A stretch of 41,194 nucleotides of DNA, taken from contig NZ_JAHZMO010000029.1 in assembly GCF_020748185.1 (NCBI RefSeq), positions 1 to 41,194 of the forward strand, given 5' to 3'. Both the position numbers and the translations under genes were made by a program. Origin of the DNA: Terrisporobacter petrolearius. Its GTDB lineage: Bacteria; Bacillota; Clostridia; Peptostreptococcales; Peptostreptococcaceae. A model generated the notes under the pieces. It saw nothing but the letters and a program-made list of their open reading frames with translations. It did not search any database and was not told where the DNA came from. This document shows positions 34,025 through 40,983 of the stretch, in pieces; position 1 is the stretch's first letter, and every line of letters begins with the position of its first letter.

Positions 34025-34819
34025 TTAAGCAAACATAATTCTATCTGAAAGCTCTTCTTTAAAAGTAATTTTATTAAATTCTTCTATAAGATCATTTTTA
34101 GTCAAATTCTTCTTTTCCATTTTATCCATATCAAGAATTATTTCTCCTCTATGCATCATAAGCAATCTATTTCCAAACTCTATAGCATGGTTTAAATTAT
34201 GTGTTATCATAATTGTTGTAATATTTTTTTCTTTAACTATGCTATTTGTAAGGTTTATAATAGTTTCTGATGTTTTTGGATCTAAAGCCGCCGTATGCTC
34301 ATCTAAAAGTAAAATCTTTGGTGTATTTAAAGTAGCCATTAGTAGAGAAAGAGCTTGTCTTTGCCCTCCAGATAACATTCCTACCTTTGTATTTATTTTA
34401 TCTTCAAGACCTAAATTTAATATGGAAAGATGGTTTTTAAATTCCTCTATATTTTTTTTATTAACTCCTAAAGAAAGTCCAAAACTACTTCCCTTATTAT
34501 ATGCCAAAGATAAGTTTTCTAAAATAGTCATAGATGGTGATGTCCCCTTAGTTGGATCTTGGAATACTCTACTTATAAATCTTGATTTTTTATGTTCTTT
34601 TAAATTTGTTATATCTTTTTCTTCTAAAATTATATTACCTGAATCTAACTCTAATTCACCAGATATTATATTTAAAAGAGTAGATTTTCCTGCTCCATTA
34701 CTTCCAACAATAGTTATAAAATCTCCTTGATTTATTTCTAAGTTAAAATTGTTAAAAATATTAGTTTCATTTATTGTGCCTTTATTAAATCCTTTACTGA
34801 TGGAATTTATTTTAAGCAT
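34025..34819 (-). CDS. TrpXYZ-type ABC importer ATPase, system 1 (COG1101)
   Basis: The 264-residue protein has Walker A GSNGAGKST (39-47), the phrase FISRVFQDPTKGTSPSMTILENLSLA, signature LSGGQRQ (149-155), Walker B ILLLDEHTAALDP and H-loop ITHN. DEHTAALDP with His in place of the usual Pro/Ala is characteristic of this COG1101 group, and its twin at 39104 has the same. The start overlaps the permease end by 8 bases. It powers the importer with the proteins at 34812-35687 and 35689-36681. The substrate class in this family is predicted to be aromatic or other amino acids, or purine-like compounds. Confidence 0.85.
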   Translation of the reverse strand: MLKINSISKGFNKGTINETNIFNNFNLEINQGDFITIVGSNGAGKSTLLNIISGELELDSGNIILEEKDITNLKEHKKSRFISRVFQDPTKGTSPSMTILENLSLAYNKGSSFGLSLGVNKKNIEEFKNHLSILNLGLEDKINTKVGMLSGGQRQALSLLMATLNTPKILLLDEHTAALDPKTSETIINLTNSIVKEKNITTIMITHNLNHAIEFGNRLLMMHRGEIILDMDKMEKKNLTKNDLIEEFNKITFKEELSDRIMFA

Positions 34820-35687
34820 TTAGACTCCCCCTTCCTTTTGAAGAAAATTTAAGTTTATCTAAAATATTATTATCATTCATAACTATAGCACTAACCACTA
34901 TTAATGATGTTATTAATTTTAAATCCGTTGGTGGGAAACCTAAATTTAAAGCAACACCAACACTTAGTTTATATAAAAATGCACCTATTATAACTACTGT
35001 AGTTCCTTTTAATAACCTACTATTTTTGAAAACAGATTGACCAAGTATAATAGAGGCTAAACCAAATACTATAAACCCATTTCCCATAGATATATCTGAA
35101 AATCTTTGATATTGTGCCATCATAGCTCCACTTAAAGCTACAAGTCCATTAGATATCATAAGTCCAGCTATTTTCATTTTTCCTTTATTTACTCCAAGAG
35201 AAGTAACTAGCGTGTCATTATCACCTGTAGCCCTTAAAATAAATCCAAACTTAGTTTTAAATAAAATATCCATTAATAGTTTAACTACTAACACTATTAA
35301 TAATAAAGTTACAACTACTGGTATATTATTAGAGAATATATTAGCTTTATTAAATATAGGAAGATTCGCCTTTCCCATTACTCTTAGGTTTATAGAATAT
35401 AGTCCTATCATAACTAAAATTCCAGATAAAAGATTAGTTATTTTTAAATTCACATGAAGTATTCCAGTGACTAATCCACCAATAGCTCCTCCTATAAATG
35501 CTAATCCTAATGATAAAAATGGATTAATATCCTTTAATATAAATGCTGTAGTAATTGCAGCACCTAAACTAAATGTTCCATCTACAGATAAATCAGGAAA
35601 ATCTAATATAGTATAAGTTATATATACTCCTAGTGCTCCTATAGCAAAGATAAGGCCCTGCTCTAAAGTACCTATAAAGAAGTTCAT
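34812..35687 (-). CDS. TrpXYZ-type ABC importer permease, system 1 (COG4120)
   Basis: The 291-residue protein has about eight to nine membrane segments. Conserved phrases are YTILDFPDLSVDGTFSLGAAI near residue 24, LKITNLLSGILVMIGLYSINLRVMGKAN, GFILRATGDNDTLVTSLGVNKGKMKIAGLMISNGLVALSGAMMAQYQ (cytoplasmic coupling region), and ASIILGQSVF. It belongs to the branched-chain/ribose-like permease superfamily (COG4120). Its ATG is directly after the binding-protein stop, with GGAGG. The paralogue at 38224 shares every block. Confidence 0.88.
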   Translation of the reverse strand: MNFFIGTLEQGLIFAIGALGVYITYTILDFPDLSVDGTFSLGAAITTAFILKDINPFLSLGLAFIGGAIGGLVTGILHVNLKITNLLSGILVMIGLYSINLRVMGKANLPIFNKANIFSNNIPVVVTLLLIVLVVKLLMDILFKTKFGFILRATGDNDTLVTSLGVNKGKMKIAGLMISNGLVALSGAMMAQYQRFSDISMGNGFIVFGLASIILGQSVFKNSRLLKGTTVVIIGAFLYKLSVGVALNLGFPPTDLKLITSLIVVSAIVMNDNNILDKLKFSSKGRGSLNA

Positions 35688-35688
35688 A

Positions 35689-36681
35689 TTACTTACCTCC
35701 TTCTATAAGTTTAGCTTTATTCAGTATATCTTTATCAATATTTATAGAAAGCTTATTAAGTGTATCCTTATTTATTACAAGTTCTGTATCCTTTAAATTT
35801 TTTATAGGTAACTCTTTTATATCTTTTCCTTTTAACACTTCAACTGCCATAAGTCCAGCTTCAAAACCAAGCTTTTTGTAATTAATTCCTTCTGTAATTA
35901 AAGCTCCTCCTTTAATATGAGCTTCTTCTGCTCCAATTACTGGTACTTTTTTATCTACTGACTTAGAAGCTATTATTGCCATTGAAGAAGCTATCATATT
36001 ATCTGCTGGTGTGTATAAAACATCTATTTTATCCAAGATTGAATCTAATCCTTGACTTATATCATTTACACTATTTACACCTTTTGATATTACTTTTATA
36101 TTATCTTTTTTAGCTAATTCCTCTAAATTATTTACTTGAATTTCAGAGTTTACTTCACTAGTATTGTATAAAACTCCTATAGTTTTTACATCTTTAACTA
36201 TTTCTTGCATAAGTTTTAATTGTTTTTCTATAGGAACTGCATCACTAGTTCCTGCAACATTTGTTCCTGATTTATCCTTTGATTTTACAAGGCCTGCTTC
36301 TACAGCATCGGTTACCGCTGTAGTTATAATTGGAACATCCTTCGTTGTGTTAAACGCTGCCTGTGCTGCAGGAGTTCCAATAGCGAATATTAAATCTTTG
36401 TTACTTGAGACAAAATCGTTAGATATCATCTGAGATGTTGCAATATCTCCCTCTGCATTTTGTACTTCTAGATTAAGATTTTCCCCTTCTTTAAATCCCT
36501 CAGAATTTAAAGCTTCTACAAATCCTTCCCTAGCTAAGTCTAAAGCTGGGTGAGATGCTATTTGGGATATTCCTATATTCACAATCTTTTCATGTGATGA
36601 AGAATTTCCTTTTGAACATGCTGAAAATAAAGACATGCTTACTAGAATTGAACTTAATAAAATTAATTTTTTTGCTACCAT
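35689..36681 (-). CDS. TrpX-type substrate-binding lipoprotein, system 1 (COG2984)
   Basis: The ATG at 36681 follows GGAGG by 8 bases (330 residues). The frame open from 36711 adds ten residues without a ribosome binding site. The lipobox is SLFSAC (C22). The domain (pfam04392) reads VNIGISQIASHPALDLAREGFVEAL, then EVQNAEGDIATSQMISNDFVSS, FAIGTPAAQAAFNTTKDVPIITTAVTDAVEAGLV, IGVLYNTSEVNSEIQVNNLEEL and DVLYTPADNMIASSMAIIAS. This is the family predicted as tryptophan (TrpX) or related binding proteins in Firmicutes. It is the first structural gene after the UAG-rich leader and terminator at 36787-37081. Confidence 0.88.
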   Translation of the reverse strand: MVAKKLILLSSILVSMSLFSACSKGNSSSHEKIVNIGISQIASHPALDLAREGFVEALNSEGFKEGENLNLEVQNAEGDIATSQMISNDFVSSNKDLIFAIGTPAAQAAFNTTKDVPIITTAVTDAVEAGLVKSKDKSGTNVAGTSDAVPIEKQLKLMQEIVKDVKTIGVLYNTSEVNSEIQVNNLEELAKKDNIKVISKGVNSVNDISQGLDSILDKIDVLYTPADNMIASSMAIIASKSVDKKVPVIGAEEAHIKGGALITEGINYKKLGFEAGLMAVEVLKGKDIKELPIKNLKDTELVINKDTLNKLSINIDKDILNKAKLIEGGK

Positions 36682-36786
36682 ACTACCAACCTCCAAATAC
36701 TTTGTTTTCAATTTTTGTAAGATTAGTAGAACAAAGCTTCAAATAGTATTTTTCTGTAGACAAAATTATATATACCTGTTTATAAT

Positions 36787-36818
36787 AAAAAACCCCTCCA
36801 TAAAGTTATATGGAGAGG
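36787..36818 (-). terminator. Leader terminator upstream of the system 1 binding-protein gene
   Basis: On the minus strand CCTCTCCATA (36818-36809), loop TAACTT, TATGGAGGGG (36802-36793), then T6. The stem has one G-U. It lies about 265 bases into the leader transcript and 106 bases before the start codon, so unregulated transcription should stop here. GGAGA at 36862-36858, touching the last UAG triplet, is complementary to TCTCC in the 5' arm and could form part of an antiterminator. Confidence 0.85.
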
Positions 36819-36861
36819 ACTGTTTTAATTCCAAAATAATTAACTGTTAAAGTTATATCTC

Positions 36862-37078
36862 CTACTTATGCTACTATACTACTATTTAATATTTAGCATT
36901 TAAATATATAATTAATATATTTGAATACATGTTTTAATACCTTACTTTTGTAAAGCTTGGTGAATTAATATTTCCTATTCTACTTTTACTTACTATACTT
37001 CTAATTCACCATAACATTTCTACTACTAAACTACTGTTCTACTATTCTACAATTTATATTATCTATACTACTTTCCTA
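36862..37078 (-). promoter_or_regulatory. UAG-triplet array, candidate HutP-binding leader
   Basis: On the minus strand there are 19 UAG triplets. Their plus-strand CTA positions start at 37076, 37068, 37063, 37047, 37042, 37039, 37031, 37026, 37023, 37020, 37001, 36993, 36980, 36975, then after a gap 36882, 36879, 36874, 36871 and 36862. Spacing is mostly 3, 5 or 8 bases. Bacillus HutP recognises clustered NUAG motifs in mRNA and prevents termination. A HutP-family gene ends 48 bases upstream of the array and an intrinsic terminator follows it. Binding is inferred, not shown. Confidence 0.75.
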
Positions 37079-37087
37079 ATAAAATGA

Positions 37088-37116
37088 ATTATATATAGAT
37101 TTTCAACTTATGTCAA
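37088..37116 (-). promoter_or_regulatory. Perfect consensus sigmaA promoter of the UAG leader
   Basis: On the minus strand TTGACA (37116-37111), 17-base spacer, TATAAT (37093-37088). Both hexamers are perfect. Transcription should start near 37081, three bases before the first UAG triplet. A promoter this strong implies that control is exerted later, in the leader. Confidence 0.9.
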
Positions 37117-37125
37117 CTATATAAT

Positions 37126-37545
37126 TTATAAATCTGCTATTGATCTATGTCCAAGCCCAATTACTACTTCATTTAAATGAAGCAATCCTACACTAAGGAA
37201 AATACATACACTTACATGCTCACCATGTCTTGCAACGCCAATTTTTCCACCTACGCTAAGACCATTTGCTTTATCTGCAACTTGCATTATTGCTTCTCTA
37301 GTAGCTCCTGCAATAGCACCATCATGAACATGGCAATCTTTAATTATTCCAGTCCTTTTAGATGCAACTAAAGCTCTTTCTATGATTTTTTGAATAGATG
37401 AATTTAAGTTTCCACCAATATCTACTGCTACAGCTAAAACATTCTCTTTTTTAAATTCTTCTATAAGTTTTTCTTCTTCTTGTCTTGAAGATATCGCCAT
37501 ATTAATAGAAGCTTTTGCTATATTTATGCTATTTTTTTCTTTCAT
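37126..37545 (-). CDS. hutP: HutP-family RNA-binding antiterminator
   Basis: The ATG at 37545 follows GGGAGG and gives 139 residues, close to the 148 or so of Bacillus HutP. The C-terminal half carries the family core: CHVHDGAIAGATREAI (71-86), ANGLSVGGKIGVARHGEHVSVCIF (93-116) and GLLHLNEVVIGLGHRSI (120-136). HutP hexamers bind UAG repeats in mRNA with Mg2+ and a ligand, L-histidine in Bacillus. No hut catabolic gene is present here; the next gene downstream is an ABC importer with a UAG-rich leader, so that leader is the likely target. H133 fits a metal-binding histidine; whether the other histidine ligands are conserved needs an alignment. The ligand may not be histidine. Confidence 0.85.
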   Translation of the reverse strand: MKEKNSINIAKASINMAISSRQEEEKLIEEFKKENVLAVAVDIGGNLNSSIQKIIERALVASKRTGIIKDCHVHDGAIAGATREAIMQVADKANGLSVGGKIGVARHGEHVSVCIFLSVGLLHLNEVVIGLGHRSIADL

Positions 37546-37771
37546 AAGTAAACCTCCCAATCAATCTATTTATATAATGATTTTTATATTTTAATGATTC
37601 TATAAATCGAAATAAACTTTTATATTTTACAACTTATTATATCAGACTTTAATCTAAAATGAATCATAATCTTATTGTTAAAATATTTCCTCTTACACTC
37701 TTCTTCAAATTCATCTAATATATACGTTACATTTAATTTACAAAAAAATACACTAAATCTTATATTTTTTA
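37546..37771. other. Divergent control region between hutP and the rightward leader
   Basis: AT-rich, no gene. It must contain the hutP promoter on the minus strand (TATAAT-like sequence near 37644, no clear -35). UAG triplets are sparse here on both strands, unlike the neighbouring array. Confidence 0.4.
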
Positions 37772-37800
37772 TTGACTTATAAATTTTAATAGCATATACT
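37772..37800 (+). promoter_or_regulatory. SigmaA promoter of the system 2 leader
   Basis: TTGACT (37772-37777), 17-base spacer, TATACT (37795-37800); each hexamer differs from consensus at one base. The expected start is near 37807, giving a leader of about 415 bases before the permease ATG. Confidence 0.8.
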
Positions 37801-37863
37801 CTATATTAAATAAAAAACGAACATTAAATATTATTAATTATAAAATAGAACTGGAGGGTAATT

Positions 37864-37920
37864 ATGAATACTTTAATAAACAAACAAGCACGATTTAGTT
37901 TTTATAGCCAATTTATATAG
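37864..37920 (+). CDS. Predicted 18-residue leader peptide rich in Phe/Tyr
   Basis: The frame MNTLINKQARFSFYSQFI has a strong GGAGGG (37853-37858) 5 bases before its ATG and starts about 57 bases after the predicted transcription start. Four of the last eight residues are aromatic (F, F, Y, F). Its stop codon overlaps the first base of stem segment 1 (37920-37930), and the Tyr-Ser-Gln codons overlap TATAGCCAA, which can pair with 38007-38015. This is the arrangement expected for ribosome-mediated attenuation sensing charged Phe or Tyr tRNA. It is not proven to be translated. Confidence 0.6.
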   Translation: MNTLINKQARFSFYSQFI

Positions 37921-38015
37921 GGTTTGTATCAAGTTATAAATTTGATTAATTTTAACATGGATACAAACCCCTTATGACTTACAAATAATTTGGGATTGTA
38001 TCTGTGTTGGCTATA
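37903..38015 (+). promoter_or_regulatory. RNA switch candidate with three mutually exclusive segments
   Basis: Segment 1 GGGTTTGTATC (37920-37930) is perfectly complementary to segment 2 GATACAAACCC (37960-37970). Segment 3 GGGATTGTATC (37993-38003) can pair with the same segment 2 with one mismatch. A fourth pair, TATAGCCAA (37903-37911) with TTGGCTATA (38007-38015), would close the whole structure and includes leader-peptide codons. This is a classical attenuator logic, located directly upstream of the terminators at 38050-38168. Confidence 0.7.
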
Positions 38016-38049
38016 TTGTTTATAATGTTATTCATTATTACCATTTATA

Positions 38050-38205
38050 AAGCCACACGGATTATACTGTGTGGCTTTTTTATATTCAAAAATGAACCAC
38101 ATGGATTATGCTGTGTGGTTTTTTTATACCCAAAATAAACCACATGGATTATACTATGTGGTTTTTTTATACAAAATAAATGTGGTTTTTTTATACAAAA
38201 TAAAT
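38050..38205 (+). terminator. Three tandem near-identical terminators plus a partial copy
   Basis: Hairpin 1: 38050-38058 with 38069-38077. Hairpin 2: 38095-38101 with 38114-38120. Hairpin 3: 38137-38145 with 38156-38164. Each has the form CCACA-loop-TGTGG followed by 6-7 T, and the loops read GGATTATACT or a one-base variant. The unit repeats every 43-44 bases. A fourth, partial unit (TGTGG plus T7 and the ATACAAAATAAA spacer) is at 38181-38205. All lie between the leader switch and the permease start. Confidence 0.85.
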
Positions 38206-38223
38206 TTTAAAGGAGTATTTTTT

Positions 38224-39117
38224 ATGATAGGAATTGTATCTGTAGTAACACAAAGTTTAATTTTATCGATTATGGCATTGGGTATTTATATCAGCTATAA
38301 AATCTTGGATTTTCCAGACTTATCTGTTGATGGAAGCTTCTCACTAGGTGGTGCTGTTATCGCTTTATCTTTAACTAATGGGCTATCTCCAATAATAGGA
38401 ACTTTATTAGCTCTTCTATGTGGCTTAATTTCTGGTCTTGTTACTGGTATTTTGCACCTTAAGCTTAAAATTTCTAACTTACTTTCAGGAATTTTAGTTA
38501 TGGGTATGCTTTACTCTATTAATCTAGGAATAATGGGAAAGTCAAACGTTCCACTATTTAATTTCAATCACTTATTTAATATCCGTATTTCTCCACTAGT
38601 ATTAGTTATAGCTGTTGCATTTTCTTGCAAATTTATTTTAGATTTATTCTTAACTACTGGACTTGGGTATACATTAAAAGCTGTTGGTGATAATTCTCAA
38701 ATGGTTAAATCATTAGGAGTTGATATTGATATTATAAAAATATTAGGACTAATGCTATCTAATGGTATGGTTTCTTTATCTGGTAGCTTATATGCTCAAT
38801 TTCAAGGATTCTCTGATGTTAATATGGGAATTGGTACTTTAATGCTTGGAATAGCATCAATAATAATTGGTGTATCTCTATTTAAGAAACTTACATTTAT
38901 CAAGGACACTACATCTATATTATTTGGAACTCTAATCTACCAATTTACAATTTACCTTGCAATAAATTTAGGTATAGTACCTCCTAATAACTTAAAATTA
39001 ATGACTTCTATAGTATTAATTTTATTCTTAAGTATTGGTAATCTAAATATTTTTGCCCATAAAAATACTAACTATAAATATTCAAAGAAAAGAGGTGTTG
39101 TAGATGCTACAAATTAA
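38224..39117 (+). CDS. TrpXYZ-type ABC importer permease, system 2 (COG4120)
   Basis: The true start is ATG 38224 after AAAGGAG (297 residues). The frame is open back to 38071, but that part is a translation of the tandem terminators and is not coding. The protein has eight to nine membrane segments and the same blocks as the system 1 permease: YKILDFPDLSVDGSFSLGGAV, LKLKISNLLSGILVMGMLYSINLGIMGKSN, GYTLKAVGDNSQMVKSLGVDIDIIKILGLMLSNGMVSLSGSLYAQFQ. Here the permease gene is first and the binding protein last, the reverse of system 1. Confidence 0.88.
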   Translation: MIGIVSVVTQSLILSIMALGIYISYKILDFPDLSVDGSFSLGGAVIALSLTNGLSPIIGTLLALLCGLISGLVTGILHLKLKISNLLSGILVMGMLYSINLGIMGKSNVPLFNFNHLFNIRISPLVLVIAVAFSCKFILDLFLTTGLGYTLKAVGDNSQMVKSLGVDIDIIKILGLMLSNGMVSLSGSLYAQFQGFSDVNMGIGTLMLGIASIIIGVSLFKKLTFIKDTTSILFGTLIYQFTIYLAINLGIVPPNNLKLMTSIVLILFLSIGNLNIFAHKNTNYKYSKKRGVVDATN

Positions 39118-39972: not shown

Positions 39973-40983
39973 ATGATAATAAAAAATAAGTTAATGAATT
40001 TAATTTTAGTAGGATCAATTGGAGTTTCTTTACTTACAGGATGTTCAAAAGATAGTAGTAATGAGAAATCATCTGATTCAAATAAGGATATCAAAACCAT
40101 AGGAATTACTCAGCTAGTGGAGCATCCTTCTTTAGATAAAGCAAGAGATGGTTTCATAAAAGCACTAGAAGATAACGGATATAAGGATGGAAAAAACATA
40201 AAAATCGATTACCAAAATGCTCAAAATGATATGCCTACAACTCAAACGATTGCAAATAAGTTTGTATCTGATAAAAAAGATTTGATATATGCTATATCAA
40301 CACCATCAGCTCAAGCAGCTTATAACACAACTAAAAATATACCTATTCTAATGACTGCTGTTACTGATCCAGTCGCTGCCGGTCTAGTAAAATCCCTAGA
40401 TCATCCTGGAGAAAATGTATCTGGTACATCAGATTATATATCTATAGATAAAAATCTAGAATTGATTAAAACACTTATCCCAAATGCTAAAACTATAGGT
40501 GTTTTATATAATACTAGTGAAGTAAACTCAAAGATACAGGTTGATATGCTAAAGGAATATTCATCTAAAAACAATTATAAAATTATAGAAAAGGGCGTTT
40601 CTTCTGCAAATGAAATCAATCAAGCCATGTCTAGTTTAATAGCTGATATAGATGTTTTATATGTTCCAACAGATAACTTAATTGTTTCTTCTATGCCGAT
40701 AGTTTCTAGAATCGCTACTGATAATAAAGTTCCAGTAATAGCCTCTGAAGATGGATCAGTCAAATCTGGTGCACTTGCATGCCAGGGTATAGACTATGAA
40801 AAATTAGGTTATAAGACTGGAGAACTTGCAGTTAAAGTTTTAAATGGTGAGCAAGTATCTAATATTCCTGTAGCTACGTTAGATGAAACTCAAATAATAG
40901 TTAATGAAGATACTTTAAAATCTCTTTCTATGAAAAAAACTGATGATAAAAACATAATATATGTTAAAACTGGTAAAAATTAA
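39973..40983 (+). CDS. TrpX-type substrate-binding lipoprotein, system 2 (COG2984)
   Basis: The 336-residue protein has lipobox SLLTGC (C24), a Ser/Asp/Lys-rich linker, then the pfam04392 domain. The domain reads IGITQLVEHPSLDKARDGFIKAL, YQNAQNDMPTTQTIANKFVSDKKDLIYAISTPSAQAAYNTTKNIPILMTAVTDPVAAGLV, IGVLYNTSEVNSKIQVDMLKEY and DVLYVPTDNLIVSSMPIVS. The positions that differ from system 1 include the HPSLD/HPALD and EDGS/EEAH segments, which may mean different ligands. It is 113 bases after the ATPase gene, with AGGAGG; no clear terminator or promoter in the gap. Confidence 0.88.
   Translation: MIIKNKLMNLILVGSIGVSLLTGCSKDSSNEKSSDSNKDIKTIGITQLVEHPSLDKARDGFIKALEDNGYKDGKNIKIDYQNAQNDMPTTQTIANKFVSDKKDLIYAISTPSAQAAYNTTKNIPILMTAVTDPVAAGLVKSLDHPGENVSGTSDYISIDKNLELIKTLIPNAKTIGVLYNTSEVNSKIQVDMLKEYSSKNNYKIIEKGVSSANEINQAMSSLIADIDVLYVPTDNLIVSSMPIVSRIATDNKVPVIASEDGSVKSGALACQGIDYEKLGYKTGELAVKVLNGEQVSNIPVATLDETQIIVNEDTLKSLSMKKTDDKNIIYVKTGKN

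Follow-up and report, generated by a model that had tools for sequence, protein, structure and literature searches.

The role known for HutP is antitermination in a single catabolic operon. Its canonical site in Bacillus subtilis is presumably UAG-N4-UAG-N4-UAG, with a step of 7 nt. HutP forms a hexamer in Bacillus, and the B. subtilis hut operon carries two clusters of three UAGs, according to passages of the review literature. TRAP is described in a review passage as an 11-mer that binds U/GAG repeats 2–3 nt apart. Here we analyse a HutP-family gene in a stretch of 41,194 nucleotides from Terrisporobacter petrolearius (contig NZ_JAHZMO010000029.1; hereafter the window). It seems reasonably probable that this protein, which is predicted to bind a UAG array in the leader of an ABC importer operon and a pair of UAGs at the start codon, represses the importer at high levels of its ligand, probably tyrosine.

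Organization of the locus

The HutP-family gene, encoding 139 amino acids, lies at 37126–37545 on the reverse strand, where the importer operon and its leader are also located, and matches PF09021 with 157.9 bits (gathering cut-off 25), in agreement with an earlier note on this DNA that had placed the end of a HutP-like gene at 37126. The promoter that the note had called perfect, a sigma-70-type element (TTGACA-N17-TATAAT, 37088–37116) directly behind hutP, matches the consensus at 12 of 12 positions, and the predicted transcript start is at approximately 37081. The leader comprises a first UAG array (array 1, 36975–37078) of 14 UAGs with an 8-nt period, a second array (array 2, 36862–36884) of five UAGs that is aligned in eight near leaders, and an intrinsic terminator (36793–36818, −15.7 kcal/mol), which occupies the proposed place and has a U-tract after the stem. 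The 5′ arm of the terminator opens with CCUCUCC (36818–36812), and the last UAG of array 2 is held in GUAGGAGA (36858–36865), the predicted 5′ strand of an antiterminator. The leader is followed by genes for a substrate-binding protein (SBP; 35689–36681, PF04392, predicted tyrosine type), a permease (34812–35687, PF02653) and an ATPase (34025–34819, PF00005); these profile matches uphold the assignment of the target as an ABC importer rather than histidine degradation. A start-codon box, GGAGGUUGGUAGUAUGGUAG (36675–36694), covers the Shine–Dalgarno (SD) sequence and AUG of the SBP gene.

No Rfam covariance model (T-box and others) matched the window at its gathering score, and the matches at E ≤ 1 within 36600–38300 all fall at 37908–38173, outside the hutP–SBP leader. 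The divergent second TrpX-type operon has a leader (37840–38165, forward strand) with a short open reading frame, MNTLINKQARFSFYSQFI, a hairpin and three tandem near-identical terminators; the Rfam trpB motif RF04312 scores 42.2 bits at 37954–38086, below its gathering score of 59. As the SBP gene of this second operon has no UAG box at its start, the two divergent importers of the window appear to be under different RNA control.

UAG arrays

The interval from the hutP stop codon to the SBP start contains 21 UAGs, 19 of which lie between the predicted transcript start and the terminator. A recount confirmed these 19, with 10 in 37020–37078 and five in 36862–36884; the remaining four are at 37003, 36995, 36982 and 36977. 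Two UAGs that the earlier note had missed, at 36685–36683 and 36677–36675, straddle the SBP start codon (36681–36679). The window leader is the only place in the 4,049,809-base genome with four TAGs at 8-nt steps, and the genome contains no copy of the reversed pattern. Dinucleotide shuffling of the window leader alone gave no significant excess (21 UAGs against 16.8 ± 2.7 expected, p = 0.085); most UA and AG dinucleotides here belong to UAG triplets, so this control is weak, and it was dropped as the main test for being too conservative.

The order hutP, UAG array and SBP gene, which the note had suggested seeking in other genomes, recurs in 48 of 91 HutP loci (80 from a related-locus search and 15 from a genome search, minus three duplicates and L015, which has no BLAST match), where an SBP gene counts as linked if it follows hutP on the same strand at a distance of no more than 1200 bases. 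These 48 leaders contain 754 TAG against 186 CTA triplets, with a median of 12 UAGs per leader. UAG pairs 8 nt apart are present in 47 of them, and the total of 156 pairs at 8 nt against 17 at 7 nt bears out the expectation that the spacing differs from that of the Bacillus sites, with their 7-nt step. Inspection by eye and flanking frequencies give the repeat unit as NNNRGUAG. Further peaks at 3, 5 and 11 nt are explained by spacers that often have UAG or a similar triplet at their end; of the spacings listed previously, the 8-nt period thus holds, and the 3- and 5-nt steps reflect extra UAGs within one 8-nt unit rather than separate spacings.

The note had asked whether UAGs are conserved while the spacers drift: among the eight near leaders, UAG positions are identical to the window at a fraction of 0.935 and other positions at 0.821 (p = 1 × 10⁻⁴), and whole UAG units appear by eye to have been gained or lost. 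A stem formed by GGTGAATTA and TAATTCACC within array 1 (36961–37008), with UAGs in its loop, is partly kept in near relatives; it was not used as a functional element since it is not kept in all eight near leaders.

Across 391 genomes of the class, the four-unit array pattern matches 42, many of the hits being simple tandem repeats; four (L116, L119, L122 and L128) were discarded by eye as coding sequence or tandem repeats. Requiring RG before each TAG left matches in 2 of 11 and 3 of 206 genomes, a form that is too strict, given the presence of 9- and 11-nt steps. An 8-nt-step array lies immediately before the start of a gene for a homoserine/threonine-efflux-type transporter in the HutP-containing genome G446 (L105, approximately 1470–1540), and in G237, a genome without a HutP match, another adjoins the ribosome-binding site of an acyl-CoA ligase gene (L109, approximately 1500–1570).

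Predicted pairing of the array with the terminator

A feature that the earlier note had missed is the predicted complementarity between the array and the terminator 5′ arm, which is specific to each locus. In the 37 of 48 leaders in which a terminator was recognised, the duplex energy is better when arrays are matched to the terminator 5′ half of the same leader than when they are matched to permuted partners (p = 0.001; p = 0.003 for 19 representatives of groups that we chose), with a mean of −10.3 kcal/mol compared with −8.8 kcal/mol for shuffled 5′ halves. Of the 37 leaders, 25 have UAGGAGA in the array region and 25 have CUCUCC in the 5′ half of the terminator. The effect persists in the 10 leaders whose 5′ half lacks UCUCC (p = 0.0007; p = 0.006 for seven representatives), and compensating pairs are seen as GGCGAG–CUCGCC (L062 and L064), AGGAA–UUCCU (L055), AGAAC–GUUCU (L060), UAGGGA–UCCCUA (L029), GAAUAAG–CUUGUUC (L010) and, by eye, GUAUG–CAUAC (L053).

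In 35 of the 37 leaders (all but L017 and L019), the stretch with the best pairing overlaps a UAG, but such overlap is also present in 92% of permuted and 90% of shuffled pairings. With UAGs this dense in the region, chance pairings overlap about as often, so this overlap was rejected as evidence, and only the locus-specific energy is counted.

In the window leader, GUAGGAGA is the best partner of the terminator 5′ half, and GGAGA pairs with UCUCC in the fold predicted for the 92-nt nascent segment present ahead of synthesis of the terminator 3′ arm. The window antiterminator is weak (−7.9 kcal/mol, against −15.7 kcal/mol for the terminator), and the window array pairs better with 26 of the 37 terminator halves than with its own.

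Start-codon box

The start codon of the SBP gene is lodged between two UAGs 8 nt apart. The pattern GTAGNATGGTAG spans 41 of the 48 SBP starts, compared with 0 of 70 permease and ATPase starts of the same operons, and the window box is the single match in its genome (reversed control, 0). A strict form of the box, GGAGNNNGGTAGNATGGTAG, occurs in 24 of the 391 genomes of the class, with no match for the reversed pattern. HutP is present in 23 of these 24 genomes, compared with 104 of the 367 others (Fisher p = 2 × 10⁻¹¹); within four informative families the association has an exact p of 1 × 10⁻⁴, kinship being handled in these statistics by family strata alone. The one box genome in which no HutP was seen is G340, and 104 of the 127 HutP genomes have no strict box. 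A relaxed box is noisy, matching 120 of the 391 genomes; among its listed matches with ATG, HutP is present in 31 of 41 genomes for a 3-nt gap, 16 of 31 for 2 nt, 15 of 28 for 4 nt and 6 of 14 for 5 nt.

The 25 boxed loci comprise 11 SBP genes, nine sodium:solute symporters, four members of the lactate-permease family and one SNF symporter (ten were scanned by profile and the rest assigned by BLAST or near-identical N termini), so that the box GGAGNNNGGUAGNAUGGUAG is common to four unrelated transporter families. It lies beside hutP in 10 of the 23 HutP-box genomes; in the other 13 it is on a different contig or separated from hutP by at least 22 kb (627 kb in G107). One operator on unrelated genes, found with HutP but often not beside it, is as a trans-acting regulator predicts. 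Since the box overlaps the SD sequence and the AUG, its likely effect is repression. Seven of the nine symporter loci have 0–3 TAGs in the 260 nt upstream (L184 has seven and L188 six), and in L182 and L183 a terminator-like hairpin is visible by eye ahead of the box.

The HutP clade

A fold search assigned the HutP fold to the window HutP; a sequence search of the Protein Data Bank (PDB) with the protein or its alignment found nothing. The residues H73, H77 and H138 of canonical HutP, which we take to be those that bind the metal and histidine, are kept in the B. subtilis and Geobacillus proteins and in L015. The corresponding positions are G, G and E in 44 of 44 clade members, which we picked from the loci; the window clade is without the canonical histidine and metal residues. 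L015 is the only hutP–hutH locus seen, and three UAGs at 7-nt steps, the same spacing as in the presumed canonical site, abut its terminator.

In eight scanned loci without a directly downstream SBP gene (10 proteins), no hut genes were found; the genes present are comEC with DNA polymerase III delta, GmrSD, a nitroreductase, an alanine-dehydrogenase-like gene, an Na/H exchanger, a sodium:solute symporter, an auxin-efflux-type transporter and MutH. In L027 (4560–4680), hutP is followed by what looks by eye like a tRNA gene in place of the array.

HutP-family proteins, the two kinds taken together, occur in 127 of the 391 genomes sampled from the class. Within the genus of the window, HutP was not found in the five other genomes, and its presence in one of six suggests transfer or loss. 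No paper on this clade was recognised among the matches listed from a mainly open-access literature; the texts that serve as sources are PMC7430163, PMC12456014 and PMC6816091.

Candidate ligand

The nearest PDB sequence to the window SBP is CD0873 of Clostridioides difficile (entry 6hni, 319.8 bits), which binds tyrosine with Glu-263 and Tyr-279 as selectors, as described in PMC6816091; the same text names tyrosine as the source of p-cresol in this organism. Glu252 and Tyr268 of the window SBP match these determinants. The pair is found in 50 of 52 rows of the SBP alignment and in 48 of 50 HutP-linked rows, a count that excludes the doubly counted window SBP and the unlinked second SBP; the exceptions are L067, with D/Y, and L077, which is truncated. 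The second SBP of the window (39973–40983) has the tyrosine-type Glu and Tyr with no UAG box at its start, so these residues do not mark HutP control.

Two further clues come from other targets. The boxed SNF gene of L189 stands behind a T-box (86.7 bits, gathering score 93; E = 9 × 10⁻²⁰) whose specifier reads UAC, a tyrosine codon, by a rule that was devised after viewing the calibrating genes and relaxed (GAA for GAG at the end) to read L189. The rule is correct for the pheS, alaS, ileS, tyrS and metG T-boxes of the window genome, gives a wrong codon for trpS and gives none for L240 (leuS by our reading). In G430, an array precedes a gene for which tyrosine phenol-lyases are the best matches of solved structure (359.7 bits; best tryptophanase, 331.4), and in G455, another species of the same genus, an array precedes a close homologue. 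The T-box and the HutP-type start box of L189 (1220–1530) sit on one symporter gene and may constitute two amino acid sensors in series.

The remark in the earlier note that the ligand may differ from histidine accords with the loss of the canonical residues in all 44 clade members, and on balance tyrosine would seem likelier than any other single ligand. The competing reading, in which the ligand is another amino acid, a metabolite or an ion and HutP is a general transporter regulator, has a considerable though lesser probability: it accommodates the lactate-permease-family and PutP/PanF-like symporters among the boxed genes, which have no obvious tyrosine carriage, but leaves aside three separate clues to tyrosine, namely the SBP residues, the UAC T-box and the tyrosine phenol-lyase-like target.

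Proposed mechanism

RNA binding by the clade HutP is likely, and we predict it with high confidence; repression as its effect is also likely, with less confidence. Without ligand, the end of the array would pair with the terminator 5′ arm as an antiterminator, RNA polymerase would read through and the start region would be left free. With ligand, HutP would wrap the UAGs, part of them within the antiterminator strand, and the terminator would form; any messages that extend past it would have the ribosome blocked by HutP at the start-codon box. The title of entry 1wmq describes canonical HutP as bound to single-stranded hut mRNA; protein binding and the antiterminator should therefore be mutually exclusive, and bound protein would favour termination.

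The earlier note had proposed a HutP-dependent antitermination switch for an amino acid importer. The linkage of HutP, array and importer stands, as the 48 loci indicate; the sign probably does not, the start box and the array–terminator pairing pointing to repression. Classical antitermination, in which ligand-bound HutP would hold the array, prevent the terminator and turn the importer on with its substrate, would be in keeping with the HutP fold family, with the existence of substrate-induced importers and with a review passage stating that B. subtilis HutP prevents terminator formation. We consider it unlikely, however: the best-pairing array stretch ends 36–64 nt ahead of the terminator in 29 of 37 leaders, so that the array does not touch the terminator stem; bound HutP would block the ribosome at the start-codon box; boxes occur without a dense array in seven of nine symporter loci; and the layout differs from that of L015, where UAGs at 7-nt steps abut the terminator of the hutP–hutH locus. 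The least probable reading confines HutP to translation at the start box, with the array as a loading site and the terminator constitutive or on another signal, which suits those sparse symporter loci and the 11 of 48 leaders without a recognised terminator but not the locus-specific complementarity of array and terminator arm.

Comparison with known systems

Compared with B. subtilis HutP and hut, the window clade uses 8-nt UAG steps in place of the 7-nt steps there and in L015. The array is set apart from the terminator, with whose 5′ arm it can base-pair; a start-codon box is present, and H73, H77 and H138 are lost. The target is import rather than histidine breakdown, and the sign is predicted to be reversed. 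The leaders have a median of 12 UAGs, compared with the two clusters of three given for hut in a review passage. For HutP relatives, an operator that a 20-letter pattern can retrieve, an opposite sign and a new ligand are predicted here, and the targets of a large regulator family, found in 127 of 391 genomes when either kind is counted, become testable.

The importer resembles that of C. difficile CD0873 in its SBP family and in the tyrosine-selecting Glu and Tyr; unlike the HutP-linked importer of the window, HutP was not found in eight genomes of the genus g4, which we guess to be Clostridioides.

In the fullest form of the proposal, which is tentative and falls somewhat short of probable, the clade would be a tyrosine-sensing repressor of clostridial amino acid import and a second invention of TRAP on another fold, wrapping UAG repeats at an 8-nt pitch, removing the antiterminator and clamping the start codon through a box shared by ABC, SSF, SNF and lactate-permease-family transporters. 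Attenuation and translation control together would mean that a HutP-fold protein operates as TRAP does; if true, TRAP-like control would have a second example, on an unrelated fold. The predicted likeness to TRAP, as far as review passages describe it, lies in repeated triplets that would overlap an antiterminator and in translation control. Unlike TRAP, the protein has the HutP fold rather than that of the unrelated TRAP 11-mer, the triplets are UAG with an 8-nt period, and both kinds of site are carried by one message.
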